From contig LJUC01000040.1 in assembly GCA_001303695.1 (NCBI GenBank), forward strand, positions 1 through 37,386: a stretch of 37,386 nt of DNA, in the 5' to 3' direction. The notes beneath the pieces are model-generated. The model was not told the DNA's origin and searched no databases. It worked only from the letters and a program-made list of their open reading frames with translations. A program made the translations under genes and the position numbers. Origin of the DNA: Phycisphaerae bacterium SM23_30. Its GTDB lineage: Bacteria; Planctomycetota; Phycisphaerae; Sedimentisphaerales; SM23-30. How positions within the stretch are numbered: position 1 is the first letter of the stretch; each line of letters opens with the position of its first letter. Positions 9,588-14,195 of the stretch are shown piece by piece.

Positions 9588-11462
9588 TCACTTTTTAAGA
9601 TTTGCTTCAATTGCTTCGATTCTTTTGGTCAAGGTCTTTACTTGATCTTCTAATTTCTTTAGGGACTCATTTTTTTCTTTTACCACTTCCAACAGGTACA
9701 GGGAAACCAGCTCATACCTGACGTTTTCCGGGCGACCTTCGCTATCATAAACTACCAGGTTATTTAAGCCCGCCTGGTCAAAATCTTCGGCGATATAACC
9801 TATTTCTTCCCAATCATTGCCTTTCATATGAAATTTTTTGGGTTCAATTTTAAAAATCTTTTCAAAATTGTCTTGTAACGGTCGGATGTTTTCCTTGTAT
9901 CGGGCTGAGGACGTGGGGGCGAAAAGTTTACCGGTACTGTCCACCTTCACATAGGCCGAGGTCGCTCCTCCGCTGGTATTATAGAGACTGGGAGTATATA
10001 TTGCCCCTCCTCCGCTGGCAATGTTAACATTTCCGCCCCAGTAATTTAAATATAAGGTAGTTTCGTCTGTTACGCTGCTCTTGGCTTGAATTTCGTTATA
10101 ATCGAATGTTAAGTGATTGCTCGCGGCAAACCCGAAAATAATCGATCCGTCTGAGTTGGAACCTACGGTGGCATTGGAGTTAACATGAAAATCAGCGGCC
10201 GGAATATTCGTGCCGATCCCGACGTTGCCGTTCCTTATGATCGTCATCAGAGATGTAGCATGGCTAAAACTGTCGTTAATAATACCAAATCCCAATTCGT
10301 CTCCATATCCTGAAATAAAAAAGTATTTCTCATCCACAGGATGCATCGAACCCCCCAAAATCAATTTACCCGAGCCCTCACCTTCAACGAATAATATTGC
10401 GGATCCCGATGGACGGGTAACATGCAATTTCGTCCTGGGATTTTCGGTCCCAATGCCTACAAATCCATCATCATTGTGGGCCAGGTAAACATTACCGTCC
10501 GCCGTCGCCGCCAGAGCCGTTGCCGGATTGGTAACATACGTCCGGAAGGCAAAATCATATTGGGAATCAAGATTGGCCCTGCCTCCTTTATAGACGTCTT
10601 CCACCCCGTACGCCCAGGTGCCAAACGAGGAAATCCCTGGTTCGACTTCAAGGGTATATTTTTCATCGGCAAAAATTTCAATCGGCGTGCTGAGATAAAG
10701 CCAGTTCCATGAAAACCCAGATTTCACCGACATACTATCTGAATGTAAAAGCGCTCCTCCGGTACCTTCGCCGGAATATATGTTCACTGTCAAGGTATCA
10801 GATATATTATCTTGATAATATATTTCTATCCGGGTTAACTTTCCGGTAATGCCCGCCGTAAATGACTGCCATCCATATACGCCGCTGCCTAAAGTATCCC
10901 AATATGTATTTTCCTGATCTAAAGCCTCAATCGCACCCCCGGCGACCTCGAATCTCTCCGAGGGATTGAGGGTGCCGACGCCGACGTTGCCGGAAAGAGC
11001 TGCATACATATCATCACCGGCGACCGTCCAGTCATTATCACCACCTGAGTTCCGGGCATAAATTGCATAAGGTGTGGGAGTTACTTTTTGCCGCGGCGTC
11101 AGGGTGGTGTAGATGTTGGGATCGGCTAAAGGGCCCGGCCGCACGCCGATCTCCAGCCAGCGGGGATCTCCATTAAAAGCATCGGTGCCGAAATCCAGGG
11201 TTACGGTAAAAGTCCCGTTGGTTATTTCTCGGTTTTCCTTGGTGACGGTAGGCCCCACTTGGTATAAGGGGCTGGTCAAATTGGGATCGGCGAAAAGCTT
11301 AAACTCGAAGTCATATTTCCCCTTGGCCGGTGAGCCGGCGTCGGATAACCTGCCCTGATAGGTAAACGCCGTACCCATATCCTGCCCCCAGACGCTTTCG
11401 ATCAACATCAGGCCAAAAACCACCATCAGAAATAATACCATTAACTTTTTTCGAGTAGACAT
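9588..11462 (-). CDS. Secreted tail-fibre-like protein with C-terminal S74 intramolecular chaperone domain
   Basis: A 624-residue exported protein. Residues 1-26 are a signal peptide ending in SVWGQ. An immunoglobulin-like region (about 30-135) starts GTAFTYQGRLSDAG. A middle module (about 180-310) with WQSFTAG and a lectin-like look is flanked by repeated GNVGVGTLNP, GFVGIGTENP and GNVGIGTNIP units, which are typical of trimeric fibre-like proteins. The C-terminus is a peptidase S74 domain beginning at SARYKENI (about residue 519), with the Ser and Lys expected for self-cleavage, and ending in a coiled coil of about 30 residues. In phage tail spikes this domain trimerises the stalk and then cuts itself off. 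GGAGG lies 10 bases before the ATG. A bacterial surface fibre is the likely role. Confidence 0.85.
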   Translation of the reverse strand: MSTRKKLMVLFLMVVFGLMLIESVWGQDMGTAFTYQGRLSDAGSPAKGKYDFEFKLFADPNLTSPLYQVGPTVTKENREITNGTFTVTLDFGTDAFNGDPRWLEIGVRPGPLADPNIYTTLTPRQKVTPTPYAIYARNSGGDNDWTVAGDDMYAALSGNVGVGTLNPSERFEVAGGAIEALDQENTYWDTLGSGVYGWQSFTAGITGKLTRIEIYYQDNISDTLTVNIYSGEGTGGALLHSDSMSVKSGFSWNWLYLSTPIEIFADEKYTLEVEPGISSFGTWAYGVEDVYKGGRANLDSQYDFAFRTYVTNPATALAATADGNVYLAHNDDGFVGIGTENPRTKLHVTRPSGSAILFVEGEGSGKLILGGSMHPVDEKYFFISGYGDELGFGIINDSFSHATSLMTIIRNGNVGIGTNIPAADFHVNSNATVGSNSDGSIIFGFAASNHLTFDYNEIQAKSSVTDETTLYLNYWGGNVNIASGGGAIYTPSLYNTSGGATSAYVKVDSTGKLFAPTSSARYKENIRPLQDNFEKIFKIEPKKFHMKGNDWEEIGYIAEDFDQAGLNNLVVYDSEGRPENVRYELVSLYLLEVVKEKNESLKKLEDQVKTLTKRIEAIEANLKK

Positions 11463-11541
11463 AATATGGTGCCTCCATTTAGGTTTAATTTTTTTCTCTG
11501 TTTCTCTTGCCTTTCGGTATCGAGAGTGCCACGATATTCAA

Positions 11542-11569
11542 CCATGTGAGGAACTTCAATGCCCCTCAC
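11542..11569 (-). ncRNA. Group II intron domain VI and 3' end
   Basis: Directly after domain V, GTGAGG and CCTCAC pair around GGCATTGAAGTT, followed by ATGG. The position fits domain VI, which carries the branch-point adenosine; the exact branch base and the 3' splice junction cannot be fixed from sequence alone. Confidence 0.65.
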
Positions 11570-11570
11570 A

Positions 11571-11603
11571 GAACCGGACTTGAAGATTTCCCTCATCCGG
11601 CTC
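11571..11603 (-). ncRNA. Group II intron domain V hairpin
   Basis: The minus-strand RNA starts GAGCCGGA and ends TCCGGTTC, forming an 8-bp lower stem that contains the AGC catalytic triad. A 5-bp upper stem (TGAGG/CTTCA) carries a GAAA-type loop, and a 2-base bulge (AG) sits on the 3' side. This is the standard domain V architecture at 33 bases against the usual 34. Confidence 0.82.
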
Positions 11604-12013
11604 TTCAGTAAAACTCACGTCACCGGCGACAGCGTATATAAGTTGTGCACAATCGTTCCAATATGAGGGCTAATCTTGTCGGCGTTATGTTTGCCATTTC
11701 AGCGTACGGCATAAACCTCCTCATCCCTCGGCGTTTTACAGCTAACCCCTTCGAGTGAGCCACACGCTCCACCGGGCATTACCCCGGCTACGCCTCTAAT
11801 ACGGGTTAGTCCGACTACCATATCGCCATACCTCCGCCTTGCCTCTTCAGCTTGTTGGAAGCTTCTTTGGGAACGATATGGTTCTCCCAAGTTCCGACGC
11901 AAACAGTTCGATTACCTGCCATGGCCTCAGACCCGGCACGCCGCTGACACACTCACCTTTAGCATCTCCTCTTCGATGCAGCTTGAATTTTAGGAAAAAC
12001 ACATCGCCTGCAC

Positions 12014-12293: not shown

Positions 12294-12320
12294 CACATCG
12301 ACCAGAAAAGGAGAATGCTT

Positions 12321-13211
12321 GTGAAGAAAAAACCACCACGTTTAGGCATCATCGGCGGAACCGGTCTGGGCCAGGTGCTTACTCAGCAAACTACCGGCAC
12401 CGAAGAAGATTTGGATACTCCATTTGGCAGTCCCTCCGGCCCTATCATCACCACGGAATGGCACTCAGTTCCGATCGCTTTTATAGCCCGACACGGCCGC
12501 GGACACCTGCTTAATCCTTCTTCAGTCCCCTATCGAGCCAACATCCACGCTCTCAAACAGCTTGGCGTCACTCACATTATCGCCAGTGGGGCTTGTGGCT
12601 CATTGGTCGAGCATATCGAACCACGGCACCTGGTGATACCCGATCAAGTTATTGACAAAACCTTTAAGCGAGCCAGCAGTTTTTTCGACGGCGATCTGGC
12701 CATCCACGTCGATTTTGCTTATCCTTTTTGTGAGAAATTGCGTCAATTATTGCTTTCTGCCGCAGCCAATATTGATACTAAAGTGCACGACTCGGGCACC
12801 TACATTTGCATGGAAGGACCCCAATTTTCTACCCGTGCCGAGTCTTTACTGTACCGTTCATGGTCGGCCCACCTGGTGGGCATGACCTGTATGCCTGAAG
12901 CCAAACTCGCCCGTGAGGCCGAAATTTGCTATGCAATGGTTGCTCTGGCTACCGACTACGATTGTTGGAAGCCTCATCCCGGCGATACCGACAAGCATGC
13001 CTTAATGAATGAAATCATCGGCCACGTCAATGCGACTACGGAAAATGCCTTCAAGCTAATTTCTCAAGCAGTGATGAATGCCGGATCCCTTTTGGAAGCA
13101 AAATGCGAACATCATCAAGCCCTGGAGTTGGGTATATGGTCCGATAAAAGCGAGGTTACCGACCCTGTCCTGGAAAAATACAGACTACTTATCGAAAAAT
13201 ATATTATTTAA
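12321..13211 (+). CDS. mtnP: S-methyl-5'-thioadenosine phosphorylase
   Basis: Phosphorolytically splits 5'-methylthioadenosine to adenine and 5-methylthioribose 1-phosphate, starting methionine salvage. I choose the GTG at 12321 (296 residues): AAGGAG at 12308-12313 is spaced 7 bases from it but only 1 base from the ATG at 12315. Seen: the phosphate-binding IIGGTGLGQ at the N-terminus, ARHGRGH, YRANIHAL, SGACGSL, the substrate segment CMEGPQFSTRAES, and MTCMPEAKLAREAEICYAM followed by ATDYDCW. The last two segments are typical of methylthioadenosine phosphorylase rather than guanosine/inosine-type PNP. No other salvage genes (mtnA and so on) are in the window. Confidence 0.92.
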   Translation: MKKKPPRLGIIGGTGLGQVLTQQTTGTEEDLDTPFGSPSGPIITTEWHSVPIAFIARHGRGHLLNPSSVPYRANIHALKQLGVTHIIASGACGSLVEHIEPRHLVIPDQVIDKTFKRASSFFDGDLAIHVDFAYPFCEKLRQLLLSAAANIDTKVHDSGTYICMEGPQFSTRAESLLYRSWSAHLVGMTCMPEAKLAREAEICYAMVALATDYDCWKPHPGDTDKHALMNEIIGHVNATTENAFKLISQAVMNAGSLLEAKCEHHQALELGIWSDKSEVTDPVLEKYRLLIEKYII

Positions 13212-13476: not shown

Positions 13477-13506
13477 TTGACCTGTTTTTTAAAAAACCGT
13501 TAAAAT
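13477..13506 (+). promoter_or_regulatory. Promoter of the candidate small RNA
   Basis: TTGACC (13477-13482) and TAAAAT (13501-13506), each one base off consensus, are separated by 18 bases. The predicted start is about 13513. Confidence 0.55.
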
Positions 13507-13512
13507 ACTATT

Positions 13513-13586
13513 AGAAGCGTTTGTTTTCCTTTCGCGGCGCTTCCGCCGAACGGTCGTTTCACCCCTTGCGACCGTCGGCTATTTTT
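13513..13586 (+). ncRNA. Candidate small RNA, about 74 nt
   Basis: A free-standing transcription unit with no coding frame. From the predicted start, hairpin 1 pairs GAAGCG (13514-13519) with CGCTTC (13538-13543) around an 18-base loop rich in U and C (UUUUCCUUUC). Hairpin 2 pairs GCCG-A-ACGGTCG (13545-13556) with CGACCGT-CGGC (13569-13579), 11 bp with one bulged A, and is followed by TATTTTT: a convincing intrinsic terminator. The U/C-rich loop is complementary to GAAAGGA-type ribosome binding sites, so a translation-repressing sRNA is a reasonable guess. It matches no RNA family I recognise. The neighbouring genes converge on it, so it is not a leader of either. Confidence 0.5.
13545..13586 (+). 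terminator. Intrinsic terminator of the candidate sRNA
   Basis: An 11-bp GC-rich stem (GCCG-A-ACGGTCG with CGACCGTCGGC, one bulge) has a 12-base loop and is followed by TATTTTT on the plus strand. No T-tract follows it on the minus strand, so it acts in the plus direction. It could also stop any read-through from mtnP. Confidence 0.65.
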
Positions 13587-13649
13587 CCCGTGCAAAATCC
13601 AGACAGGTCGGTGTATTTAGCATTTTTCGTTATTAATGATTGGCCTTTC

Positions 13650-14195
13650 TCACACAAAGCCTGCCTCATGCTTTAACAAGCGGCCTTTGAGCCCTACTCC
13701 GCCAGGTGCTGAATACCCACCCAATGATCCGTTCGCTTTTACTACTCGATGACATGGTATTACCAAGGGGGCTCGATTTCGGGCCATGACCATGCCCACT
13801 GCCCGGGCCGCACCCGGACTACCCACCTGCCGGGCTATCTCTCCATAACATATTGTTTGCCCAAGTTTTACGATGGAACACCGACGTAAAACCGCTCGTC
13901 CAAAATCACCGGCCCATGATATATCCACTTGGCAATTAAATTCCACCTTACTTCCCCGAAAATAATCTACTATGGATTTCTGGAGACCGGTTAGAAGTGC
14001 TGCATCATGCTTTGCCAAAGGAAATTCAAAAGCGATTCGATTGACCACGGCAGACTTTTTATCCATCGGCATTATCACGCGACATAACCTCGTCCCCTGA
14101 CAGACAACAGCCAAGTGTCCCCAACTCGTATTCACCAATGCGTAGTAATATTTGTCAGAAACAGGTGGTTTTGTTCTCACCAGTTTAATCGCCAT
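13650..14195 (-). CDS. ogt: Methylated-DNA-protein-cysteine methyltransferase
   Basis: Removes alkyl groups from O6-alkylguanine or O4-alkylthymine in DNA by irreversible transfer to its own cysteine. The 181-residue protein has an N-terminal ribonuclease-H-like domain and a C-terminal DNA-binding domain with the acceptor Cys148 in VIPCHRVV, preceded by GEIARQVGSPGAARAVGMVMARN (helix-turn-helix and the Arg finger region) and followed by GSLGGYSAPGG and GLKGRLLKHE. A GGGAG ribosome binding site lies 8 bases before the ATG. It is about 75 bases downstream of the FixJ-like regulator on the same strand, but no Ada-type activator domain is present, so control by adaptive response is not indicated. 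Confidence 0.95.
   Translation of the reverse strand: MAIKLVRTKPPVSDKYYYALVNTSWGHLAVVCQGTRLCRVIMPMDKKSAVVNRIAFEFPLAKHDAALLTGLQKSIVDYFRGSKVEFNCQVDISWAGDFGRAVLRRCSIVKLGQTICYGEIARQVGSPGAARAVGMVMARNRAPLVIPCHRVVKANGSLGGYSAPGGVGLKGRLLKHEAGFV

Follow-up and report, generated by a model that had tools for sequence, protein, structure and literature searches.

The window, as we call the whole stretch of 37,386 nucleotides that was analysed, contains between two convergent genes, for a PNP/MTAP-type phosphorylase and an O6-methylguanine-DNA methyltransferase, a promoter followed by two hairpins and an intrinsic terminator (Table 1). The initial annotation had described this gap as a stand-alone candidate gene for a small RNA, and its reading of the parts agrees well with ours. 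The TTGACC-18-TAAAAT promoter is present, and the RNA start is predicted at about 13513; in the homologues described below, the RNA begins 5-7 bp after the -10 box. The 6-bp hairpin with its U/C-rich loop was found to have a stem lengthened by two U.G pairs, and the 11-bp terminator stem that precedes TATTTTT to carry one bulged A, at 13550; the bulged stem went undetected in a simple terminator scan. No ATG occurs within the RNA. Its predicted fold has an energy of -29.9 kcal/mol, compared with a mean of -18.1 kcal/mol for shuffled sequences (z -4.25), and none of 200 shuffles was as stable. A promoter scan returned four promoter-like sites in the region against 3.2 expected in shuffles, and the promoter taken alone is not significant. 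That the locus is real rather than a product of chance follows from its conservation across relatives.

Table 1. Features of the small RNA locus and its surroundings in the window, with the loci of a second RNA, in family f11 (numbered within each locus)
Feature	Position	Strand	Remarks
PNP/MTAP-type phosphorylase, upstream neighbour (context)	12315-13211	+	PF01048
Sigma-70-type promoter	13477-13506	+	TTGACC 13477-13482, 18-bp spacer, TAAAAT 13501-13506
sRNA, about 74 nt	13513-13587	+	5' end predicted; 3' end within U tract; covariance-model match spans 13513-13590
Hairpin 1	13514-13543	+	Stem 13514-13521 with 13536-13543; six Watson-Crick pairs (GAAGCG 13514-13519 with CGCUUC 13538-13543) and two U.G pairs (13520-13521 with 13536-13537)
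Seed loop UUCCUUUCG	13526-13534	+	Consensus YUCCUUUCG; copy of 16S anti-Shine-Dalgarno tail CUCCUUUC
Terminator hairpin	13545-13579	+	5+6 bp: 13545-13549 with 13575-13579; 13551-13556 with 13569-13574
C-rich terminator loop UUUCACCCCUUG	13557-13568	+	12 nt
U tract UAUUUUU, intrinsic terminator	13580-13586	+	T-rich tail after the stem in relatives too
O6-methylguanine-DNA methyltransferase, convergent downstream neighbour (context)	13650-14195	-	PF01035
f11 sRNA loci	around 1498-1580 (L087: 203-272)		L084-L087, L090, L092, L094-L096, L100-L105

Two other elements of the neighborhood may be recorded here. Shortly 3' of the terminator, at 13599-13614, lies a palindrome of the type ATACMGACYGGTYGGTAT, which resembles operators of the TetR family. 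Palindromes of this type occupy the same place in L040, L042, L043, and L044, making five carriers with the window, and a search of the sampled 288 kb with the pattern returned no copy, the window's own degenerate copy also being missed. On the minus strand at 11450-11605 is a match to the 3' part of a group II intron (Rfam RF00029), with 48.4 bits against a threshold of 40. It lies immediately ahead of a 624-amino acid Peptidase_S74 open reading frame, overlaps the start of that frame, and is probably an intron remnant.

The assembly to which the window belongs comprises 4.0 Mb in 295 contigs and is 78.5% complete, and its named relatives are metagenome-assembled genomes labelled Sedimentisphaerales, Phycisphaerae, or Planctomycetota. 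A DNA search of relatives yielded seven homologues at E values of 5e-5 or better, all of the same family. The covariance search in related genomes, which the initial annotation had put forward as a check, extended this set: a model trained on eight sequences recovered nine members strongly and a tenth, L048, weakly, and all ten were recovered at E values of 3e-11 or better by a refined model, the training set of which already included the new members. Of the 13 sampled genomes of the family, 10 thus carry the RNA, as one strong copy per genome, and one of the three non-carriers is only 62% complete. Among 161 genomes of the order, the first model gave no strong match outside the family, and a search guided by synteny with the methyltransferase gene turned up no convincing counterpart in the other families of the order. 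Several weaker candidates were set aside. Matches to the hairpin pattern in Anaerolineae and Nitrospirae genomes (L058 and L061) lie inside open reading frames, without promoter or terminator; for this pattern, a rough estimate of the chance expectation is of the order of one match per 257 billion bases. The weak model matches L049-L052 and L071-L083 have no fitting promoter and are mostly ordinary terminators. We are all but sure that the ten members constitute a genuine, conserved sRNA gene family.

Conservation of the stems in relatives was one of the points on which the initial annotation had staked its reading, and both stems are kept with compensatory changes. In an alignment of the ten members, 94% of the cells pair, and 13 of the 20 base pairs show changes on both sides, as do 9 of the 12 pairs of the terminator helix; the alignment was fitted to the structure by a model, so that these counts lean towards the structure. 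On each of five measures, the observed value lay beyond those of all 500 shuffles, and pairing drops to 30-50% when the alignment is slid. The clearest example, which does not depend on statistics, is L048, where the first stem, AAGCGUU/GGCGCUU, has given way to AAGUUACC/GGUAACUU and is re-paired by compensatory changes, with the loop, UCUCCUUUCG, and the promoter both retained. The two U.G pairs of the first stem are kept in most members. The predicted folds of nine members are more stable than all 100 of their shuffles, and that of the tenth is more stable than 99. The terminator loops are C-rich but variable, reading CACCCC, UCCCC, UCUCC, CCUCC, or ACUCCC.

A -35 box beginning with TTG and a -10 box of the form TA...T precede the RNA in every member, and the spacer between them is exactly 18 bp in nine of the ten and 20 bp in the tenth. 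The genes upstream are less constant: four genomes have a PTS EIIA-2 (ptsN-like) gene there, the window an MTAP gene, G007 murD, and another genome a leuA-like gene, assigned from a reading of its translation. The methyltransferase gene adjoins the RNA in six of the ten carriers, and the L048 member sits at an unrelated genomic place. Since the RNA stays constant while the upstream genes vary, it is not tied to a neighbor, which bears out the description of the gene as stand-alone. The locus has its own promoter, an intrinsic terminator, a conserved structure with compensatory changes, and no coding capacity, which are among the general marks of a trans-acting sRNA.

The part of the molecule that has changed least is the loop of the first hairpin. 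Its core, YUCCUUUCG, is identical in all ten homologues, with a predicted mean unpaired probability of 0.91-0.99 across the ten. The 16S rRNAs of five relatives with a complete 3' end terminate in GGAUCACCUCCUUUCU; the comparison rests on relatives because the 16S gene of the window's own genome ends before its 3' end. In seven of the ten members, the loop reads CUCCUUUC, a letter-for-letter copy of the anti-Shine-Dalgarno (aSD) tail of these 16S rRNAs. The copy in the window reads UUCCUUUC instead, sharing UCCUUUC, with one pair fewer. An exact identity of 7-8 nt between loop and 16S tail is common to all ten carriers, and in all ten the G that follows UUUC departs from the tail, which has UUUCU. 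The earlier suggestion that the loop could pair with ribosome-binding sites of the GAAAGGA type is strengthened by a core that is invariant, predicted to be unpaired, and identical to the aSD tail.

Our preferred reading, to which we would assign a probability of roughly two in three, is that of an antisense regulator of the aSD type, a trans-acting sRNA by which mRNAs with GAAAGGA(G) ribosome-binding sites would be silenced. An RNA of about 74 nt would be made from a sigma-70-type promoter of its own and end at its own terminator; the hairpin at its 5' end would hold the YUCCUUUCG loop open; the loop, as a copy of the aSD tail, would pair with GAAAGGA(G) Shine-Dalgarno (SD) sites and, by keeping ribosomes off those mRNAs, repress them. 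The C-rich loop of the terminator may offer a second contact. Comparison of the sequences shows the gene with its promoter and both hairpins, as well as a loop that is invariant, predicted to be open, and identical with the 16S tail; transcription, pairing with mRNA, repression, and the identity of the mRNAs hit are what we infer. In a calculation on the bare duplex, pairing of the loop with CGAAAGGAG gave -11 to -17 kcal/mol.

Gene statistics rest on samples of two genomes, 288 kb from that of the window and 314 kb from that of one relative. SD complementarity of at least 6 nt precedes 28 of 168 genes in the 288 kb, against 10 in shuffled leaders, with crude start calls, and SD use looks like a minority habit in this genome. 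Prediction of targets for the loop had also been proposed in the initial annotation. Across the genome, the complement of the loop, CGAAAGGA, precedes an ATG by 4-10 nt in 37 cases, as opposed to 8 for the reversed pattern. In the sample read, 82 site-bearing genes in five carriers, no target is common to most carriers and none is universal. The putative target families that are shared include a GFO/IDH/MocA-type oxidoreductase and a surface protein with a LEERIAP-type N terminus, each in three genomes, and three other families in two. A Sulf_transp-family gene with the leader GCGAAAGGAGAUUAACGCCAUG bears a site in both the window's genome and G010, the duplexes being predicted at -17.3 and -22.1 kcal/mol. 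These shared families and the Sulf_transp-family gene are leads, because any copy of the 16S tail would match SD sites. An apparent enrichment of secreted proteins among the putative targets (41%, compared with 22-31% of all open reading frames) was discarded, as the proportion among SD-led genes generally is 52%. With a crude predictor, signal peptide-like N termini looked commoner in SD-led genes of this family (25 of 48) than in all open reading frames (98 of 370); these counts come from G000, sampled in the window and 20 contigs, and G005, sampled in 16 stretches.

Other accounts of the same features deserve consideration. The loop might imitate the 16S 3' tail not for the sake of mRNA but as a decoy that captures a protein with a natural affinity for that tail or for pyrimidine-rich RNA, such as bS1, bS21, or a cold-shock protein. 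Protein sites, too, commonly take the form of a short conserved loop on a stem whose letters change, and the exactness of the 16S copy in seven members would fit such a role, as would the lack of a conserved target in the sample of genes read. We know of no protein partner for a loop of this kind, however, and a decoy sits uneasily with the G that differs from the 16S tail in all ten members and with the RNA of family f11 described below, in which the CU-rich tract is linear rather than looped and better suited to pairing; on balance we think a decoy rather improbable. Alternatively, the RNA may be real but have its main contact elsewhere than at SD sites, in coding sequence or as a sponge, its resemblance to 16S rRNA being incidental. 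Short CU-rich loops can indeed pair with many purine-rich stretches, and of the 211 7-nt complements of the loop in the 288 kb only 11 lie just before starts. Yet an incidental resemblance would have to account for 7-8 nt of exact identity in every carrier, and SD sites are the place at which CU-rich sRNAs act in other phyla (PMC10746234, PMC4132741), so that we regard this account as distinctly unlikely.

The remaining two accounts dispense with a trans-acting RNA on the plus strand. Terminators are common between convergent genes, and a structure belonging to a neighboring gene, either its terminator or part of its 3' UTR, would be at home there; the methyltransferase gene is often adjacent. 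Termination has no need of the first hairpin with its invariant loop, however, and the promoter is kept at a fixed distance while the upstream neighbor differs between genomes. Taken together, the fixed promoter, the varying neighbors, the absence of an ATG, and the unrelated place of the L048 copy rule out most cis-acting readings, and we consider what is left of them very improbable. Still harder to credit is a functional RNA on the minus strand with GAAAGGA in its loop, as in a CsrA-type site. Hairpins form on both strands, and the only near-match in Rfam, MH_s10, is on the minus strand; the promoter and U tract, on the other hand, fit the plus strand only, and the two U.G pairs of the first stem would become A.C mismatches.

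The initial annotation could name no known family, and no family matches the sRNA at its gathering score among the 4227 of Rfam 15, in which all matches were at chance level by E value. MH_s10 (RF02879), on the minus strand, reached 22.6 bits against a threshold of 81 and is taken as chance. The closest parallels lie in other phyla. α-r14/NfeR1 of Sinorhizobium and other α-proteobacteria has three hairpins, each with CCUCCUCCC, and silences mRNA at the translation start (PMC10746234). The RNA of the window resembles it in having its own promoter and a constant unpaired aSD motif on stems of differing sequence (PMC10746234), but has two hairpins, of which the first carries YUCCUUUCG and the second a variable C-rich terminator loop. 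LhrC of Listeria monocytogenes exposes CU-rich loops, including that of the terminator, and can block the SD sequence (PMC4132741). Two hairpins, with CU-rich motifs in one loop and in that of the terminator, are common to both RNAs, whereas LhrC has UCCC-type motifs, a third CU-rich motif between its hairpins, and five copies. In the family of the window, 0 to a few nucleotides separate the hairpins, and no CU-rich stretch is found there. PmaR of Agrobacterium also engages its targets through a C-rich single-stranded loop (PMC6234868), but it is a single long spoon-like stem, the interacting sequence is described as not aSD, and it mostly activates. The best reading of these comparisons is that the RNA works like NfeR1/α-r14 or LhrC without being a member of either, given the differences in hairpin number, motif, and inter-hairpin motif and the lack of an Rfam match. 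For the PVC group as a whole, only eight distinct sRNA families are listed in a 2022 survey (PMC9029176), and in the open-licence literature on sRNAs in Planctomycetes and Phycisphaerae, we found nothing on such an RNA and no characterized trans-acting sRNA in Planctomycetota. The sRNA family is previously undescribed.

In f11, another family of the same class, the refined model picked up further matches, weak but recurrent. These are not chance terminators: in 15 loci the 22-nt tract UUCCUUCCUUCUCCCCCACGAA is invariant, and it has upstream of it a promoter-like CGTATA and a variable 5' hairpin, and downstream a terminator whose loop is of the UCCC type. This CU-tract RNA is a second undescribed sRNA in the class. 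A model of it, R3, detects 23 f11 genomes, with up to three copies (in G224), as well as weaker matches in five genomes of other families; it has no match to the carriers of the window's family, and none of the Rfam families tested matches the f11 RNA. The two RNAs have in common a CU-rich, aSD-like seed, a terminator with a UCCC-type loop, and an upstream murD gene, but the f11 seed is a linear tract with the letters UUCCUUCCUUCUCCCCC and that of the window's sRNA a loop. murD lies directly upstream on the same strand in six f11 loci, and likewise in G007; that this neighbor is shared by chance is unlikely (a few per cent, as a rough estimate with about 20 neighbors compared). Because coincidence is possible and much of the similarity between the models lies in the terminator, a common origin of the two RNAs is a suggestion only. 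Two loci of family f16 (L088, 1501-1573, and L097, 1501-1578) have aSD-like hairpin loops reading CUCCUCC, UUUCUCCUCCUUC, and GUCCUCCUUUCCCC, with no clear promoter seen. On the minus strand of L100, at 587-793 and about 0.7 kb from the f11 sRNA, a 6S RNA stands at the Rfam threshold (46.5 versus 46.4 bits).

It is tempting to go further and to see both RNAs as branches of an old, undescribed group of aSD-type sRNAs in the Phycisphaerae that display a copy of the ribosomal tail and thereby regulate globally those mRNAs, a minority in these bacteria, that use SD sites, although we hold this to be doubtful. The RNA family is new, and the principle of copying the aSD sequence is already known from other bacteria. 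What the locus provides is a sequence-defined RNA in Planctomycetota with an explicit seed that can be mutated. If our reading is correct, it would be an independent case in which the tail by which the ribosome recognizes mRNA has been copied into a regulatory RNA, and in this lineage, with SD sites at only a minority of genes, an sRNA of the aSD type could be selective.
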